Source of the DNA: Candidatus Fermentibacterota bacterium
GTDB lineage: Bacteria; Fermentibacterota; Fermentibacteria; Fermentibacterales; JCC-6
Direction of reading: 5' to 3'
Assembly: GCA_003646025.1 (NCBI GenBank)
Contig: QNDR01000012.1
Span: 1-40,723, forward strand
DNA length: 40,723 nucleotides
A program made the translations under genes and the position numbers. Below are positions 11,308 through 27,778 of the stretch, piece after piece; positions within the stretch are counted from its first letter, which is position 1, and each line of letters starts with the position of its first letter. The notes beneath the pieces were generated by a model. That model had not been told where the DNA came from. It did no database searches and worked only from the letters and a program-made list of their open reading frames with translations.

Positions 11308-13108
11308 TTCTCTTCATCAGATACAGAGCAAGTCCATCCAGATCGGCCTGGCGAACAGCGGGTATTGACTCTGCCTCCAGCAGTGTTGCCGGTCGCCTTT
11401 CGTTCAGAGCTTCCCTGGCTTCAATGGTAATAGTTTCTACCAGATTGTAATCTTTTATGGACTCAAGAGAAGCACTGCCGTATCTTTTTCTGACACTGTG
11501 TCTCTTTTCGGCTCGCTTCACATAACCGGAATACTTGATATCAAGCACCGCTGTCCTCAGTATCTCTCTTTCATCTATACTCTGCGTCTGCAGGTCTATT
11601 AACCCCCCAGCCTCCTCCGGTGTTATCTCCGGCCTTCTGCATATACTCTCTACTGTTTTTCCATGAATTCTTGTTTCCATCAGTTTTTTTCTCATATGCC
11701 TGTATTTTCTGTCCCGCTTCTGGTACTCCGCTATTTTCTTTTCTGAAAGAACCCCCAGTTTCTCGGCAAACTCAAAAACTCTTCTGTCCGCGTTGTCCTG
11801 TCTCAGACCAAGCCTGTTCTCCGACCTGCTGGAGAAAAGCCTGTATGGCTCTTCTGTGCCTATTGAAACCAGATCATCCACCATTACTCCCAGGTAACTG
11901 TTCAGTCTATCCGGTATCGTCTGTTCTAACCCAAGCGCGCTTCTTGCCGCACATGCACCGGCAAACAACCCCGTTGCTGCTGCTTCTTCGTATCCGGAGG
12001 TTCCCAGAATCTGACCACATACGTAAAGATTCTCTGTTTCCCGCAGTTTCAGAGTATGGTCGAATTCTCCGGTTTCAAAGCATGTGTACTCTACAGTGTA
12101 TCCGTAAGCTGCTATAACAGCGTTGCTGAACCCCGGGAGAGACCTCACGATTTTTTCCTGTATCTCTTCCGGCATACTTGTAGACAGCCCGTTCAGATAC
12201 ATAATTCTTGATGACTTTCCCATTGGTTCCAGGTGTATAGGATGACCTGTTCTCTCCGGGAACTTCGTTACTTTGTCTTCAAAGCTGGGGCAGTATCTCG
12301 GGCCCCTGCCGTGTATTCTGCCTGAGTACAGTGCAGATTTTGTAAGGCTGTCTTTTACAAGTTTTTCCGTTTCTCCTGTTGTTCTTGTTACCCAGCATTT
12401 CTCTGTGTTCGCAACTCCCTGCTTCGATGCCCAGCTGAACCTGAACTGTAAATCATGCGATATCTGTTCCTCTAGAATAGATGTGTCAATTGAGTTTCTC
12501 AGCACCCTGGGAGACGTTCCTGTCTTGAATCGTTTCACGTGAAACATTCTTTTCCGTATATCTCTTTCAAGAGAAACCGACGAAGTGTCTCCTCTTCTGC
12601 CACCGGGCCATGTAACCTGTCCTCTGTGCAGCATACCATCCAGGAATGTTCCAGCAGCAAGAACAAAAGTCTGTGCCTTTATTTCCCTTCCATCCTCAAG
12701 AAGCACCGCTTTTATTCGTTTGTTTGGCCCCACGAGCCTGCGGACAAGACCCTCTACAATATGAACCCCTGCTGCTCTCAACTGCTGTATCTGCTTTACA
12801 GTGTACATGTCAACATCTGATTGTACTCTAGGACCCCACACTGCAGGCCCTTTTTTCATGTTCAACATTCTGAACTGAAGTGCAGTTGCATCTGCGCTCT
12901 CAGCCGTTACTCCTCCCAGTCCATCTATCTCCCGCACCAGTGTTCCCTTTGCTATTCCTCCTATTGCCGGATTGCAGGACATCAGGGATATCTTTTCTGT
13001 GCTCGGCGTTACAAGTACTGTTGTGCATCCAAGTGATGCTGCCGCTGCTGCCGCCTCAACACCTGCGTGCCCTCCCCCTATCACAAGCACCTGATATTTC
13101 TGTTTCAT
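11288..13108 (-). CDS. mnmG: tRNA uridine-5-carboxymethylaminomethyl modification enzyme MnmG (GidA)
   Basis: This 606-residue FAD enzyme acts with MnmE to install cmnm5 groups at U34 of tRNAs. The FAD fold shows VLVIGGGHAGVEAA at the N-terminus, then LMSCNPAIGGIAKG and LVREIDGLGG. The C-terminal blocks include PYRLFSSRSENRLGLRQDNAD and the all-helical end. Residues 188-193 (MFHVKR), where relatives simply run into the KTGT(P/S)PR motif, are encoded by a second parS site. The gene ends with SVSRET in parS site 1. Its ATG overlaps the mnmE stop. Length is typical. Confidence 0.96.
   Translation of the reverse strand: MKQKYQVLVIGGGHAGVEAAAAAASLGCTTVLVTPSTEKISLMSCNPAIGGIAKGTLVREIDGLGGVTAESADATALQFRMLNMKKGPAVWGPRVQSDVDMYTVKQIQQLRAAGVHIVEGLVRRLVGPNKRIKAVLLEDGREIKAQTFVLAAGTFLDGMLHRGQVTWPGGRRGDTSSVSLERDIRKRMFHVKRFKTGTSPRVLRNSIDTSILEEQISHDLQFRFSWASKQGVANTEKCWVTRTTGETEKLVKDSLTKSALYSGRIHGRGPRYCPSFEDKVTKFPERTGHPIHLEPMGKSSRIMYLNGLSTSMPEEIQEKIVRSLPGFSNAVIAAYGYTVEYTCFETGEFDHTLKLRETENLYVCGQILGTSGYEEAAATGLFAGACAARSALGLEQTIPDRLNSYLGVMVDDLVSIGTEEPYRLFSSRSENRLGLRQDNADRRVFEFAEKLGVLSEKKIAEYQKRDRKYRHMRKKLMETRIHGKTVESICRRPEITPEEAGGLIDLQTQSIDEREILRTAVLDIKYSGYVKRAEKRHSVRKRYGSASLESIKDYNLVETITIEAREALNERRPATLLEAESIPAVRQADLDGLALYLMKRSVSRET
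11291..11306. promoter_or_regulatory. parS: parS site 1 (perfect consensus)
   Basis: The 16-mer TGTTTCACGTGAAACA is the perfect palindromic chromosomal parS consensus bound by ParB. It straddles the last codons of mnmG (SVSRET) and the first of rsmG (MFHVKH). The same location is known in other bacteria. Confidence 0.95.
12531..12546. promoter_or_regulatory. parS: parS site 2 (15 of 16) inside mnmG
   Basis: CGTTTCACGTGAAACA differs from the parS consensus only at the first base. It lies within mnmG just before the codons for FKTGTSPR, 1240 bp from site 1. The matching palindrome core and the adjacent parAB genes support a functional ParB nucleation site. Confidence 0.88.
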
Positions 13109-14301
13109 TTTCCCACACAGAATCTCTCCAGAGCCCTTTCAACAGCATCTGCATTTTTTACCGGCTCTTCCGCCTCTCTGAGAACTTCTGATACAATTTC
13201 TGCAGCAAGAGCGACATCACTGTCTGCTGCTTCAATTGCTTTCTTCAGCAGTTCTACCATTTTCTCAAGCCGCCATGATGAACCCTCTTTTTCCGTTGCG
13301 CTTATGAACTCTTCAATCTGTTGCAGTCCCTGTCCGGTTACAGAGGATACGGATAGCCAGCCTGTTTTTTCCATTGTGTTCTTTTTGTCGCACATTGAGC
13401 ACACTCTCAACACTTCATAGCCTTGTTTAATTCTTTCTGGTATATCGTTGCACTGCGGGTCCATCCATACAATTCTGTCCCCCCGCCCAAGAGATTTCTC
13501 TGAAATCGTCAGAGCCTTCCCATCCAGTCTCTGTCCTCCGTATCCTGCACTGTCTGTTATTTCTACTCTCCTGCCGTAAACATTCAGTATTCTTGTTGCT
13601 CCATCTCTTGTTGTTCCCGGTGTGCTTGACACTACTACAGTTTCTTTGCCATACAGCTTGTTGAACAGTGTTGATTTGCCTGCATTCACCGGCCCCATTA
13701 TAAATACCTTCGGCAGTATTTCAGCTCTTTTAACTTTTTCAGCCAGATCATTTGTCCTCTGCAGTATCCTTTTCAGCAGGTCTGATATTTTCTGCTCTTC
13801 GGAAATCTCATGATCTTCATTGAATTCTATAAAACCCTCAATTTCGCTTGTGAGCTCCTGAAGTTCTCTTGATAGATCTTTGTCTTTTCCCGGTCTACCC
13901 CCTCCGCTGAACTGTGATGAAAGCGCCAGCACATCCATTTCTGTTATTCTGCCGTTGATCCATGCTCTTCTTGTAAACTCTCCAGGCTGTGCCTGTCTAG
14001 CTCCCTTTTCCAGCAGTTTTCCAATAATTTTTCCAGCTGTTCCTGGAGAGCCGTGACACATGAGATCAACCATTTCCTCTCCAGTGTAACTCTTTCCCAC
14101 AGCCCATGAAATTGCAACAATGTGATCTATTCCGGCAAAATCACCTACTGCTCTTTTTTTTCCTTTCAGTCTTCCGCTCTTCAGTTTCATTAACAACTCC
14201 ACAACGGCAGAGGCTCCCTTTCCAGAGAGCCTTACCACTGCTATTGCTGAAACTGCGTCCGGCGTTGCCTGTGCAACAATCAGATCATTTTGCTGTTCCA
14301 T
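13105..14301 (-). CDS. mnmE: tRNA modification GTPase MnmE (TrmE), divergent and short
   Basis: At 398 residues this is about 50 shorter than usual MnmE. The N-terminal tetrahydrofolate-binding domain is recognisable ([10 protein letters not shown]…IAVVRLSGKGA, SYTGEEMVDLMCHGSP, QPGEFTRRAWINGRI). The G domain has G1 GPVNAGKST (203-211, with the K+-coordinating Asn), G2 TPGTTRDG (227-234) and G3 DSAG (250-253). No NKxD is found where G4 should be; the equivalent segment reads VCSMCDKKN. The C-terminal FCVGK keeps the catalytic Cys of the CxGK motif. It partners MnmG, with which it is coupled (ATGA). Its start overlaps the end of yidC by 17 bp. Confidence 0.9.
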   Translation of the reverse strand: MEQQNDLIVAQATPDAVSAIAVVRLSGKGASAVVELLMKLKSGRLKGKKRAVGDFAGIDHIVAISWAVGKSYTGEEMVDLMCHGSPGTAGKIIGKLLEKGARQAQPGEFTRRAWINGRITEMDVLALSSQFSGGGRPGKDKDLSRELQELTSEIEGFIEFNEDHEISEEQKISDLLKRILQRTNDLAEKVKRAEILPKVFIMGPVNAGKSTLFNKLYGKETVVVSSTPGTTRDGATRILNVYGRRVEITDSAGYGGQRLDGKALTISEKSLGRGDRIVWMDPQCNDIPERIKQGYEVLRVCSMCDKKNTMEKTGWLSVSSVTGQGLQQIEEFISATEKEGSSWRLEKMVELLKKAIEAADSDVALAAEIVSEVLREAEEPVKNADAVERALERFCVGK

Positions 14302-16806: not shown

Positions 16807-18144
16807 ATGCAGTTTTTACCAGAGGATGTGTTTGATCTTTGCCTCGACCGGGCGAAAAAACTCATGGGTCCTGAAAAATACAATTCCTGGCTGGCCAATG
16901 CTTCTTTCCGATCTTTTGAAAAAGGTGTTTTTACCGTTGGTCTCGATTCTGAGATAAGAGTAAACTTTGTAACTCACAATTACAAGGACAACCTCGAGAA
17001 TCTACTCAGAGAATTGTCCGGAGATCCCGATGTCCGGGTTGTTTTTACCCACGAGCCGGAATCACTGTCTCTTGGTAAAATTACAAACTCATCGAGACAC
17101 GAATTGTTCTCAAACTTTCTTAAGCCAGGTTATATTTTTGACAGATTCATCCAGGGACCAAACAACAGACTTGCTTATGCAACAGCTTTTTCTGTGGCCT
17201 GTGAAATGGGACAGGCTTCTTCTAATCCGTTGTTTATATACGGTGGTGTAGGCCTTGGGAAAACACACCTCATTCAGGCTATCGCTCACTATGTAAAAAC
17301 AAACCAGCCGGACAAAACATTCTGTTACATCTCCAGTGAAGAGTTTTTAACTATGTTTCTGAAAGCCATGATACCAAACAAAAATAACTTCATAGAGCTG
17401 GAACACTTCAAAGACCGCTTTCGTAATTCACACTATCTGATAATGGATGATGTTCAGTTTCTGTCTGACAAGGAAACCACACAGGATCTTTTCTTCCATC
17501 TGTTCAACGATCTCTACAATCGCGGTAGACAGATAATAGTAACCTCTGATCGCCCCCCGCACGAACTTGAACCTCTTGCAGAACGTCTGATATCCCGGTT
17601 TCAGTCCGGTATGGTCGTCGATATAAAACCACCGAAACTGGAGACCAGGCTTGTTATATTGAATCAGAAATTAAAAGATGAAAACATACAGCTCAGCAAA
17701 GAAATAGTATTTTATCTTGCGGAAACTGTTAAATCAAACGTAAGACAACTTGAAGGCGCAGTCAACCTTCTGGCGGCAAACATTAGAATACAGAACCTTG
17801 ATCTGACTCTTGATAATGTCCGTTCCATTATTACGGAGTACCTCGGTGCTTCATCCAGACGGCTTAACCCGTCTACGATAACATCTTCCGTGGGGGATTT
17901 CTTTGGTATCAACCCCAACGCTCTCAAAGGTAAAAAAAGAAACAGAGAGATTCTTGTTCCAAGACAGGTTTCCATGTTCCTTCTGCGGGAACTTACCAAC
18001 CTCTCTCTTGAGCAGATTGGAGAATTCTTCGGCCGGGACCATTCCACTGTTCTCAATGCTATCAAGCGAATCAACACACTTATGACCAAAGATTCTGTTT
18101 TCAAAAGAAAGATTCTCGATATACAGGAATCTCTTCTTGGTTGA
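16807..18144 (+). CDS. dnaA: Chromosomal replication initiator DnaA
   Basis: This 445-residue initiator ATPase has a short domain I (FDLCLDRAKKLMGPEKYNSWL), a short linker, and an AAA+ domain. The AAA+ domain carries Walker A GGVGLGKT (146-153), Walker B LIMDD (211-215) and sensor segments. The C-terminal DnaA signature GRDHSTVLNAI starts at residue 409. The start chosen is the ATG at 16807 with GGAG eight bases upstream. The frame is open back to 16576, but that extension overlaps rpmH antisense and is not conserved-looking. It is divergent from rpmH and followed by a 211-bp spacer holding DnaA-box-like repeats. Confidence 0.97.
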   Translation: MQFLPEDVFDLCLDRAKKLMGPEKYNSWLANASFRSFEKGVFTVGLDSEIRVNFVTHNYKDNLENLLRELSGDPDVRVVFTHEPESLSLGKITNSSRHELFSNFLKPGYIFDRFIQGPNNRLAYATAFSVACEMGQASSNPLFIYGGVGLGKTHLIQAIAHYVKTNQPDKTFCYISSEEFLTMFLKAMIPNKNNFIELEHFKDRFRNSHYLIMDDVQFLSDKETTQDLFFHLFNDLYNRGRQIIVTSDRPPHELEPLAERLISRFQSGMVVDIKPPKLETRLVILNQKLKDENIQLSKEIVFYLAETVKSNVRQLEGAVNLLAANIRIQNLDLTLDNVRSIITEYLGASSRRLNPSTITSSVGDFFGINPNALKGKKRNREILVPRQVSMFLLRELTNLSLEQIGEFFGRDHSTVLNAIKRINTLMTKDSVFKRKILDIQESLLG

Positions 18145-18355
18145 TTTCTCTGTTGAAAAAATCTTTACTTGTCTGGTTTCCCGCTGTGTTGTTGAAAACT
18201 CTTATTTTGCTGGAGCGTTTTCCACTTTTTTTGAACATGCTTCCCGCCCGGCTCAGACAACTGAGGGTTACTTTTGAACAGTCTCTGCGGTATAATTACT
18301 ATTACTGTATTTCTGTGTTTTAAGATTTATATATTGAATCTGTGGAGGGCTCCAA
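18145..18355. other. oriC: Probable replication origin (oriC) in dnaA-dnaN spacer
   Basis: Five 9-mers one mismatch from the DnaA box TTWTNCACA lie here. TTTTCAACA occurs on the minus strand at 18151-18159 and 18190-18198; TTTTCCACT is at 18218-18226; TTTTGAACA is at 18229-18237 and 18272-18280. After the last box come a GC-rich GTCTCTGCGG and then AATTACTATTACTG (18294-18307). Read 3'-5' on the complement, that last stretch gives AAT-GAT-AAT-GAC, the DnaA-trio pattern of the bacterial basal unwinding element. AT-rich DNA follows to 18340. The strand switch of core genes and nearby parS sites agree with an origin here. Confidence 0.7.
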
Positions 18356-19474
18356 ATGGTAAAAATGCTAGTCGATCTAAGAACTCTCTTGAACGGTCTG
18401 AATACGGTCTCTGCCGCTCTTCCATCTAAAACCAGTCTTCCTTCTCTTTCAAACATTCTTCTTGAAACAGAAGGTGATCAATTGAGGCTTGCAGCTACTG
18501 ATCTTGACACTACCGTAATTACCCTTATCCCGGCAACTATTTCTACCCAGGGTTCTGTTGCTCTTCCAGGGAAAAAACTTCTGGAAATAGTCAGAGAGCT
18601 TTCAGGTTCAGATGTCAGTATTACCACCAGCGGATCCAGAACTACCATCAGCTGTGACAAAAGTTCTTTTACTCTTCCCAGCAGCAGCAAAGACAGTTAT
18701 CCTTCTCTTCCGTCATCGGTTTTAGAATCCGATAAAATAAGCTTGCCCCATGACGTTGTTAAAAAGGCAATCAGGAAGACTGTTTACGCCGTTGCTGGTG
18801 CCAGTGAAATCCGAGCCTCGCTTACCGGCCTGTTCTGGAAACTCAATTCTGAACATCTTGAGATGGTAGCAACAGACGGTCACCGGCTTGCCAAGGTAAA
18901 AATAACAAGCGTTAACGGCGAGACAGATATGGAAGTAATTCTCGCTCCAAAAGCTCTTAATCTTCTTCTGAAAATAGATTCTGAACAACCTGTGTTTATG
19001 ACTTCTCAGGGTTCTCAGGTAAGTTTTCATATAGAAAATATCAGTATATACAGCAGAATGATTGAGGGTCCTTATCCTCCGTACGAAAAAGTAATTCCGC
19101 AGAACAATACAGATGTTCTTAAGATAAACAGGGAAGATCTGTTCTCTGCTCTGAAGAGAATGCGAATCATCGCAAACCCGGCAACGCACCAGATAATGTT
19201 CACTTTGGAGCGCAATCGTGTTATTCTTCATGCCGAGAATACAGATGCTGGAGAAGCAAAAGAAGAAATAGAGGCAGTATACGAAAAAGATCCTCTTCAG
19301 ATAGCTTTCAACGGTAACCTGATCATGGACATTCTTCGAAACATGAGCAGTGAAGATGTTCTCTTTCACCTGCACGACAGCAGCACAGCTGTGATAATCA
19401 CAGAAGAAGAACTGTCTGACGATACAGATTATCTCACTCTTGTAATGCCTGTGAGACTTCCAGATACCGTCTGA
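18356..19474 (+). CDS. dnaN: DNA polymerase III subunit beta (sliding clamp)
   Basis: This 372-residue clamp has the three-domain beta fold. Recognisable blocks are ALPSKTSLPSLSNILLE near the N-terminus, ATDLDTTV, VATDGHRLAKV in the central domain and the C-terminal LTLVMPVRLPD, which matches the (L/V)MPMR(L) end of clamps. The ring tethers polymerase III and other factors to DNA. The ATG has GGAGG seven bases upstream. It follows the origin spacer, and the DciA-like gene begins 5 bp after its stop. Confidence 0.96.
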   Translation: MVKMLVDLRTLLNGLNTVSAALPSKTSLPSLSNILLETEGDQLRLAATDLDTTVITLIPATISTQGSVALPGKKLLEIVRELSGSDVSITTSGSRTTISCDKSSFTLPSSSKDSYPSLPSSVLESDKISLPHDVVKKAIRKTVYAVAGASEIRASLTGLFWKLNSEHLEMVATDGHRLAKVKITSVNGETDMEVILAPKALNLLLKIDSEQPVFMTSQGSQVSFHIENISIYSRMIEGPYPPYEKVIPQNNTDVLKINREDLFSALKRMRIIANPATHQIMFTLERNRVILHAENTDAGEAKEEIEAVYEKDPLQIAFNGNLIMDILRNMSSEDVLFHLHDSSTAVIITEEELSDDTDYLTLVMPVRLPDTV

Positions 19475-19479
19475 TATCC

Positions 19480-24211
<4,732 letters not shown>

Positions 24212-24212
<1 letters not shown>

Positions 24213-27200
24213 TGACAGCACAGGGGAAGCTTGATCGACGAATCAAAGCCTGGATAGAGATAAAGGAACTGGATCAGATTCCTATCCGAACTCCCTACGT
24301 TAATGTGCCGGATTTTCCAGAGAGCTCCCGGGTAAAATTAAAGGATGTTCCCAAGCTTACAGCTTCGGTAAGGCGGCTGGACATCTCAAAACAGCTGGAC
24401 TCTGGTGTTCCGGCCCTCGCTTCTTTGATTTCTCTGATGGACAGAGCTGATGCTGAAGAGCTGTATAACAACCTGTCATCTTTGAGTTCTCCCATGGATT
24501 TCGATGAATTTACCGCTCTGGAGTGGTTTACAGCATGTCATAATCTGAAGACAGAAACAATAGGCAGCGCGGTTTCCGGATTTTTCCTGCTTGCTGAAAT
24601 TAACTACACAGAGAAAGCCCTTTTTGACTTTTCTGAAGCCCTGGCCTGTTTCTACAAGGTGCTGCAGAACAACAATATAAAGCAGAATAATCGTATAGAG
24701 ATCCTCTTCAGGGTAGCCAGGCTGTTCCCACACAGATTCACTTTTGTCTGTGTAAGAATTGTTTCAGGAGGAAACAAAATTCTTCCTGCTGTAGAAAACA
24801 TGCTTTCACGGCTCAACGAGCTTGACCTGAGCAAAGAAGAGTCTACTTCCGTTCTTGATTTCACTATGGAAACAGGCTGGCTGCTCAGCAGTCAGGACTT
24901 TGATCAGGTCTGGAAGCTCATTTCCAGGAAAGGCAGCAGAATTCAGGGCCGATTAACTGGCGGCATGGTCCCTATGAGCTCAATAAGGTTTTTGGCCGGC
25001 CTTTTCCGCGGGATAGAAGAAAAGAAAGGCATGGATGAATTTCTTGCCGGAGAGAGAAGAGACAGAGTTGGAAGGCTGTTCAACATTTCATCTTCACGAA
25101 GAAAGGAAAAAGCTCTTTCCTCATTTCCTAAGCTGAAACAATTGATAGATCAGCAGATTCAGCTTGATCTTACAGTGGAAGCAATTTCTCACAGAATAGC
25201 AGAGAACAACCATTCAAAGCTTGGTTTTACCGTTATTGTATTTCTTGAGAAAGTATTAAACGGGGTGACGTTCAACAGTTTAATGAAATTTCTCGCTGCA
25301 GCAGCAGGCGAATTATCCTTTGAAGTAATGAAATTTCTGGAAAAGCTTGTTGTTGAATCTACCTCCGAGAACAGGCTTCCTGTTTCAGATTTCATGCTCT
25401 TTACAAGCGTGGTTACAAGAGTTTTCTCCGTGTGCACCATGCGGGAAAGAACAGCTCTCAAGTCGTTTTACAGGGCCCTGACGAATATGGATCAGTTACA
25501 GACAAAATGGGCAGTAGAGCAACTTGATCAGGCCCTGGTCAGTGTCTCTGATGTTTCCAGTGTTCTGTCTGCAACTTCCCTGATTTTAAGGGCTTCAGGA
25601 GAGGAGAGCAGAGGAGAGTTTCTCTCCCGTATCAGTGTGACTGGCAGACTTCTTGACACTTTTTCAGAGTCAGACAGAGAAAAAGCCCTCTCCGGTCTTG
25701 TCCCGGCCTGGGTGGAAATCCTTCTCTCATTCAGTCTGGAAACAGAGGAAAAAGTAATAGAATTTCTTCTGAAGATAAATGATAGGAACAACAGAAGCAG
25801 ATATCTGGAAAAAGTTGTTACCGGCCTTCTGGGCGAAATTCATCCCAATGACACAGTTTTCGATGACTGCCTTGCTTTTGCCGTTGACGGATACAACTCC
25901 TCAGGAGTAATTGAGAAGCTTCGGGAAGTGGAACACGAAGTATTCAAAAAAGTTTTCCGGGCAGGAGGCCGAATCAAAAAGGTTGACGGTTTGATGGTAG
26001 ATCTTCTTGCCATGCCTGGATTTGAAGGAGAAAAAACAGGGCAGCTTATTTCCGGAATCCGCTTGATCTGCAACAGATTCAGCAGGCTTGCAGTGTGGGA
26101 GGAAAGTGGAGATTCCCTGTTTGATGAATTTATCGTTCATGGGGTTGGGGACATTCTCAGATCTTTTGTCGATAATCCGTCTTCGCTTGAATATGTAACG
26201 GAAGAAACAATAGAACTTCTCCTGGATAAACTAATTCAAGACGGGCAGGAGCACACCAGTTCATCGCGGATGGTAAACCCAGGCGGAACAGCCCAGACCT
26301 TTTTTGGCTCCATCCTGCCAGCGGCAATTCACCTCTTCAGCAGAAAAGCACAGGCTCTGCCTGCTTTTCTCTTCGATATCTCCAGTGAGTTTTCAAGAAG
26401 TGTCGGTGGAATGACCGCTGACGAGGATTTCGTAGATTTTCTGGTCGGAAAACTGGAAATGGAGATACAGCAGGACAGAGTAACTGTTCTTGAATCGTGG
26501 CTTTCCCAGAAGACTCCGCCCCCGCTTCAGATACCGGAGAGATGGTCCAATAAGAGACGCAAAGAGTGGAATTCTCTCAGGGTAAGAGAAGATACATCCA
26601 GGATGAAACTGTTTGGTGCCGTCTCGGCCATTGTCGGTTCCTCCGGAAGTAGAGAGAAAGAAGCTATTTTGAGCACGGCAGGCTGTCTCTCAAGACAACT
26701 TGAAAGAGCAGCGGTCCCTGGAGCTTCAGTCCTGTCTCTTAAGTGGGACAGAGCAATGATGGATCAGCTGCTTTCTCTGTGTGGCGAAACACCTTTGTTT
26801 GAGTTTTTCAAAGGTGGTTTTTCTCTCCGCGGGATAGATCCGGATATGTTGTCATATCTGGAATCAATTCCCGGATTTATGGAACAGGATATCTTTCATG
26901 CCTGGCGACAGGCGGCACTGCCCCCCCTGCTTAACTGTGCCATGGAAATTGTTCTGGTCTCCGGAAATTCACAGGCACATGCCATGAAAATGGCAAAGTC
27001 TGCTACAGAAGCGGTGGAATTCCTCGGATATGACAGTGCCAACAGTTTTCTCTCCACGCTGCAGGAAAGTATCCGATATACGTCAAGTTACGAAAACGCT
27101 TCGTCGCAGATGGAAAAGAATTTTCTTCTTCCGCTGTGGAAACGGAATTCAGCTGAAAGGCTGGATCTTCTTATGCTGGGCTTGAAAGACAGCAGATTAC

Positions 27201-27778
27201 TGACAACTATTCTTCACGAAAGATTGTCTCTTGAAGATCGCGTGGTGGGCAAAGTAAGATTTATGAAACACTACGCAACTCTATTCATTACCGTTGAAAA
27301 AGCACTGCTTGGTATACAATCAGATTTTGAGAAATCAAAATTAGCAGACGGACTTATGGATTCCTGGATATTCAGCGGTACAGGTTCCAGCACGAAGAAA
27401 CCTGTCGTTGAGATTTCCGAAACAGTGGAACTCGTCCAGGATGTGTTCAGAAGAGTCAAGTACGGAAGCGGTATTGTAAGTGCCAGTGAAGCCGGTGAAA
27501 TAAGTGCAGATATGCGCCGTAAATACCGTGATAATGCTGATTCTGTAGCTATAATACTGCGGTGGACAGTTGATCCTGCAAGGGAAGGTCTGCTTCAGTT
27601 ACTCGAGGAAAGTCAGCTTCTTCTTCAGGCCGCTGGAACCGATGCTGAACTTATGAAGCTTCTTGATATGCATGGAGCAAGAAGTGGTTTCCTGAAAGAA
27701 GCACAACCCTATTCGGAAAATCCGTCTGCCCTGAAGAAGTATTTGATGACACTGTCTGAAGATGGTGAGCAGGATTGA
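24212..27778 (+). CDS. Large unrecognised alpha-helical protein (1188 aa) in the gyrase unit
   Basis: I do not recognise any domain in this 1188-residue protein. It has no signal peptide and no membrane segment. Sequence texture is that of a long helical protein: Leu, Glu, Lys, Ser and Phe rich, with regularly spaced helix-length blocks such as VIEFLLKIND, SLMKFLAAAAGELSFEVMKF and EGLLQLLEESQLLLQAAG. This suggests an alpha-solenoid or helical-bundle scaffold (inference). No P-loop, zinc cluster or nuclease motif was found. The ATG at 24212 overlaps the gyrA TGA, with GAGGAAGAG upstream, and the stop overlaps the TTG of the asparaginase. It is therefore translated as part of the gyrB-gyrA transcript. 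Confidence 0.85.

Follow-up and report, generated by a model that had tools for sequence, protein, structure and literature searches.

A predicted chromosomal replication origin in the dnaA-dnaN spacer of a Candidatus Sabulitectum species, with DnaA boxes carrying A in place of C at position 6

The canonical DnaA box of Escherichia coli and Bacillus subtilis, TTWTNCACA, carries C at position 6 (C6), and a published table of high-affinity boxes includes none with A at this position (A6); the high-affinity box of Mycobacterium tuberculosis, TTGTCCACA, is likewise of the C6 type (PMC4285127). In the Mollicutes, the consensus reads TT(A/T)TC(C/A)ACA, as described for M. pulmonis, Spiroplasma citri, M. 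capricolum and M. genitalium (PMC3322544), and one predicted box of the linear chromosome of Cyanothece is TTATCAACA (PMC4674748). Two further aspects of origin architecture are relevant here. Bipartite origins, with boxes on either side of dnaA, are known from B. subtilis and H. pylori (PMC4285127), and the basal unwinding system of B. subtilis combines boxes 6/7 with DnaA-trios; the rule published to search for such systems asks for a box with at most two mismatches to TTATCCACA (strict) or a species-specific box, a gap of at most 16 bp and at least three NAN trios (PMC8287927). In the literature searched, we found no description of an origin from Fermentibacterota, nor any paper dealing with both Fermentibacter and DnaA.

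The window analyzed here is a whole contig of 40.7 kb from a 2.46-Mb draft genome (2,458,314 bp in 136 unordered contigs), whose nearest named relatives are metagenome-assembled genomes of Candidatus Sabulitectum/Candidatus Fermentibacteraceae. It has the following landmarks:

16807-18144, + strand: dnaA, replication initiator, 445 aa (TIGR00362, 438 bits; PF00308 and PF08299 above cut-off)
18145-18355, no strand: dnaA-dnaN spacer, predicted oriC core (box cluster, skew minimum, unwinding element, conserved blocks in 11 relatives)
18356-19474, + strand: dnaN, DNA polymerase III beta subunit (TIGR00663, 288 bits)
19480-19782, + strand: dciA, predicted replicative-helicase operator (PF05258, 49.9 bits against a cut-off of 24)
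18300-18334, no strand: predicted DNA unwinding element, the least stable 35 bp of the 40.7-kb window

The plus-strand genes run dnaA-dnaN-dciA-gyrB-gyrA, and profile matches place rpmH, yidC and mnmE upstream of dnaA, all on the minus strand and hence in divergent orientation. The MnmE-like protein is short (13105-14301, minus strand, 398 aa), falling under the NCBIfam MnmE cut-offs with a weak helical domain, and an ORF of 1189 aa directly 3' of gyrA (24209-27778, plus strand) has no match in NCBIfam or Pfam. Since the contigs are unordered, the skew can be read only locally; within the window, the cumulative GC-skew minimum falls at 18749, about 0.4 kb from the spacer, and the purine-excess minimum at 18723. 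A skew minimum and a switch in gene orientation beside dnaA and dnaN are joined by a box cluster above chance and an A+T-rich element. The latter, directly downstream of the box array, has a nearest-neighbor duplex energy of -34.9 kcal/mol, as against a window mean of -46.8 (sd 3.2). An earlier, sequence-only reading of this DNA had placed an origin in the spacer and had staked this on a skew minimum not far away; the gene context, the local skew and the adjoining stretch of lowest stability all bear out that placement.

The same reading had noted no visible cluster of perfect boxes in the spacer and had pointed instead to five 9-mers, each one mismatch from TTWTNCACA. All five are found at the positions it gave:

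18151-18159, - strand: predicted DnaA box 1, TTTTCAACA; present in only 3/11 Sabulitectum genomes
18190-18198, - strand: predicted DnaA box 2, TTTTCAACA; A6 in 11/11 genomes, with L010 reading ATATCAACA
18218-18226, + strand: predicted DnaA box 3, TTTTCCACT; orthologous site C6 in 7/11, A6 in 4/11
18229-18237, + strand: predicted DnaA box 4, TTTTGAACA; A6 in 11/11, the site reading TTTTCAACA in 8/11
18272-18280, + strand: predicted DnaA box 5, unwinding-proximal, TTTTGAACA; orthologous site A6 in 4/11, C6 in 7/11

Thus, the spacer contains four exact TTTTSAACA 9-mers plus TTTTCCACT, and a motif search finds no TTWTNCACA, whether in the spacer itself or in the 300 bp preceding dnaA. The sites match the canonical box of E. 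coli and B. subtilis except at position 6, where all four exact TTTTSAACA sites have A for C, and they are faced by a DnaA of the same family with the RDHST recognition helix. Could such 9-mers be chance T-rich repeats devoid of function? The spacer is indeed A+T-rich, but TTTTSAACA occurs only 168 times in 2,458,314 bp, or about once per 14.6 kb, so that about 0.01 copies would be expected in 130 bp, as opposed to the four found; moreover, the only two same-strand pairs of this motif spaced 10-40 bp apart in the entire genome both lie within the spacer. The chance explanation is further ruled out by the relatives, where the boxes are enriched far beyond shuffled expectation (below) and conserved in position in 11 genomes, and we regard its probability as negligible.

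For this comparison, dnaA-dnaN spacers were taken from relatives across the order, with expectations derived from dinucleotide shuffles. The 11 Sabulitectum spacers have 31 A6 boxes versus 1.0 expected and 5 canonical boxes versus 0.6 expected, with all other single-mismatch variants far rarer than A6. The non-standard boxes proposed from the single sequence are thus strongly conserved, four of the five sites being kept in position as boxes within the genus. A second genus of the same family (g2; 17 spacers) has a similar number of A6 boxes (31 versus 1.7 expected) alongside 20 canonical ones (0.9 expected), and the families f3 and f2 together have 7 canonical boxes (0.09 expected) and fewer than 3 of the A6 type. 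In the alignment of the 11 Sabulitectum spacers, boxes 2 and 4 are always A6, while boxes 3 and 5 swap between A and C; similarly, an orthologous site in g2 is TTTTCCACA in L048 but TTTTCAACA in its close relative L049. Given such swaps at orthologous sites of close relatives, A and C look exchangeable at position 6, and the simplest reading would be that they are functionally so. What sets Sabulitectum apart is the near-replacement of C6 by A6. A further possibility, which we consider rather unlikely, is that A6 boxes form a distinct functional class in Sabulitectum, with the invariant boxes 2 and 4 recruiting DnaA at another affinity, or with another dependence on nucleotide, than the exchangeable boxes 3 and 5; were this so, base 6 of each box would encode the firing order of the origin. 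One Sabulitectum spacer (L006/L035) is 417 bp long rather than the usual ~211 bp, additional sequence separating the dnaA stop codon from the conserved boxes.

Taken together, gene context, skew, box enrichment, positional conservation, the A/C exchange and minimum duplex stability support well the reading that the spacer is the chromosomal oriC of this Candidatus Sabulitectum species, at which DnaA on a TTTTN(A/C)ACA array opens the adjacent A+T-rich stretch; we place its probability at about 0.88. Counting against it, part of the sequence conservation near dnaN could be due to transcription. As for the mechanism, we infer from the arrangement of sites that DnaA would bind the array of 9-bp TTTTN(A/C)ACA boxes, its Sabulitectum version presumably tolerating or preferring A instead of C at position 6. 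The left group of boxes points one way and the right group (TTTTCCACT, TTTTGAACA, TTTTGAACA) toward the A+T-rich stretch, such that the array might nucleate a DnaA oligomer growing rightward from box 5. The duplex would then open at 18296-18334, as favored by the lowest duplex stability, and the helicase would be loaded at the opened stretch, probably with the aid of the DciA encoded beside dnaN, a role suggested by its membership in the PF05258 family. The spacer gives Fermentibacterota a concrete predicted oriC, and programs that look for origins by strict matching to TTATCCACA or TTWTNCACA would miss every box in it.

Two candidate elements overlap on the plus strand, in the stretch from box 5 into the unwinding element:

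18296-18307, + strand: candidate DnaA-trios TTA-CTA-TTA-CTG, complement 3'-AAT-GAT-AAT-GAC-5' (in accord with the published rule, statistically near chance)
18268-18296, + strand: possible dnaN promoter, TTACTT, 17 bp, TATAAT (18291-18296), with a conserved -10 and a weak -35

The sequence-only reading had likened the order of box, GC-rich spacer, trios and A+T-rich DNA to the basal unwinding system of Bacillus. If a full system of this type were present here, box 5 and a spacer would be followed by trios guiding a DnaA filament along one strand. There is indeed a likeness to B. subtilis: within the dnaA-dnaN spacer, a box points at an A+T-rich stretch that opens with TTA/CTA triplets. The motif ATTACTATTACTG (18295-18307) is preceded by a 10-bp stretch with 7/10 G+C, a 15-bp gap leads from box 5 to four NAN trios, their position relative to dnaN and the unwinding element fits, and the middle T of the first, second and fourth trios is kept in 11/11 Sabulitectum genomes. 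However, TTTTGAACA, though one mismatch from TTWTNCACA, is three from TTATCCACA, so that the site passes the search rule only when either the degenerate TTWTNCACA or the box typical of the lineage serves as the standard. Unlike in B. subtilis, there are only three strict trios and the second box is degenerate or absent. In shuffles, p is 0.034 for the window's strict run of three and 0.35 for its loose run of four, with the runs in relatives mostly at p 0.07 to 0.6; furthermore, several species have a broken third trio, the alignment of relatives shows no conservation of the GC-rich spacer, and the trios of the sister families are weak or interrupted. The proposed order is thus present and its A+T-rich part well supported, but the trios themselves are near chance, mostly lost in relatives and overlap the conserved TATAAT. 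We would put a full Bacillus-type system at somewhat below even odds.

The overlap brings in the other candidate role, namely that the conserved TATAATTACTATTACTG block is mainly the dnaN promoter with a start just downstream, that box 5 lets DnaA repress dnaN, and that the trio-like appearance is a by-product. A TATAAT at a near-fixed distance from dnaN can be read by eye in 36/37 spacers of the order, among them the ones that lack good trios, and is preceded at 17 bp by TTACTT in Sabulitectum and by TGACAT in g2. In the window, the perfect TATAAT overlaps the first trio and box 5 lies largely between the -35 and -10 hexamers, so that DnaA bound to this box would be predicted to cover the promoter if it is real. 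On the other hand, the -35 is poor, a consensus promoter scan made no call here, and the conservation extends about 11 bp beyond TATAAT, which is more than a -10 element requires. This role, to which we give an even chance, is compatible with that of an origin rather than exclusive of it, and the trio and promoter roles may coexist.

With respect to the bipartite origins of B. subtilis and H. pylori, a parallel might be struck with g2 and related families, in which boxes are conserved upstream of dnaA, at about -75 and/or -166: a conserved TTTTCAACA/TTATCAACA lies near -166 in most genomes of g2 (L020-L030, L041-L049), and many have TTATCCACA-type boxes near -75. This pattern of sites suggests a bipartite origin in that genus. 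Sabulitectum differs, as the 300 bp preceding dnaA contain no TTWTN(C/A)ACA in any of the 12 genomes, which rules out a bipartite origin of this kind there; its origin accordingly looks single-sided.

The A6 box was further supposed by the sequence-only reading to be specific to the lineage. This holds in degree, in that A6 nearly replaces C6, but not as an exclusive property, since such boxes also occur in g2, in unrelated bacteria and in the Mollicutes. Among the single-mismatch boxes of 47 spacers drawn from other bacterial families, the A6 type is the most frequent (31 versus 4.2 expected; present in 23/47 spacers), next to 60 canonical boxes (1.7 expected), and together with the Mollicute literature this rules out exclusivity to Sabulitectum. 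In this panel, A6 boxes with C at position 5 number 13 in forward form versus 2 for the reversed motif, and TTWTAAACA and TTWTTAACA number 8 each, which may be partly chance. The boxes of the window resemble those of the Mollicutes in allowing C or A at position 6 and A or T at position 3, with TTTTCAACA permitted; they differ in that G is also found at position 5 (TTTTGAACA, boxes 4 and 5), that the spacer lacks canonical C6 boxes and that the host phylum is unrelated. The change of box is thus widespread and has published precedent, the surprise being the frequency of A6 outside model species. Given that A6 ranks first among the one-mismatch boxes of the 47 spacers, the prediction of origins in uncultured lineages should benefit from a motif of the form TTWTNMACA.

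Finally, a cause for the preference might be sought in DnaA itself. The domain IV motif of the window protein, IGEFFGRDHSTVLNA, has a helix-turn-helix turn that is one residue short with the RDHST recognition motif intact, and the same deletion is seen in 12/12 Sabulitectum DnaAs (IGxFF-GRDHST versus FFSGRDHST in g2). That this deletion causes the A6 preference might seem favored by its constancy within the genus and by the fact that the only other panel lineage in which it was detected (1/95 sequences, of which 8 could not be scored) likewise has an origin rich in A6. However, g2 has a normal turn and yet equally many A6 boxes, and the DnaA of M. tuberculosis (3pvp) has an equally short turn and nevertheless uses the C6 box noted above; since a short turn goes with C6 in one case and a normal turn with A6 in the other, we reject the deletion as the cause and hold it to be very improbable. 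The substitutions T435S and H439N (E. coli numbering) are order-wide, with one exception at 439, and are also found in f3, whose boxes are C6. An AlphaFold2 model of the window DnaA displays an ordinary helix-turn-helix (pLDDT ~90 in domain IV), which has no bearing on base preference. In g2, the DnaAs of L048 and L049 read GRHHSTI instead of GRDHSTV, a change at D433, a recognition-helix residue that is invariant elsewhere, and A6 and C6 boxes remain in these genomes. The second short-turn lineage, L147, L153-L156 (four genomes, one genus, another class, 28-29% GC), has the DnaA motif IGEYFGRDHSTV, and its downstream region displays TTATCAACA and TTATCCACA mixed at orthologous sites, followed by CTATTATTATTACT.
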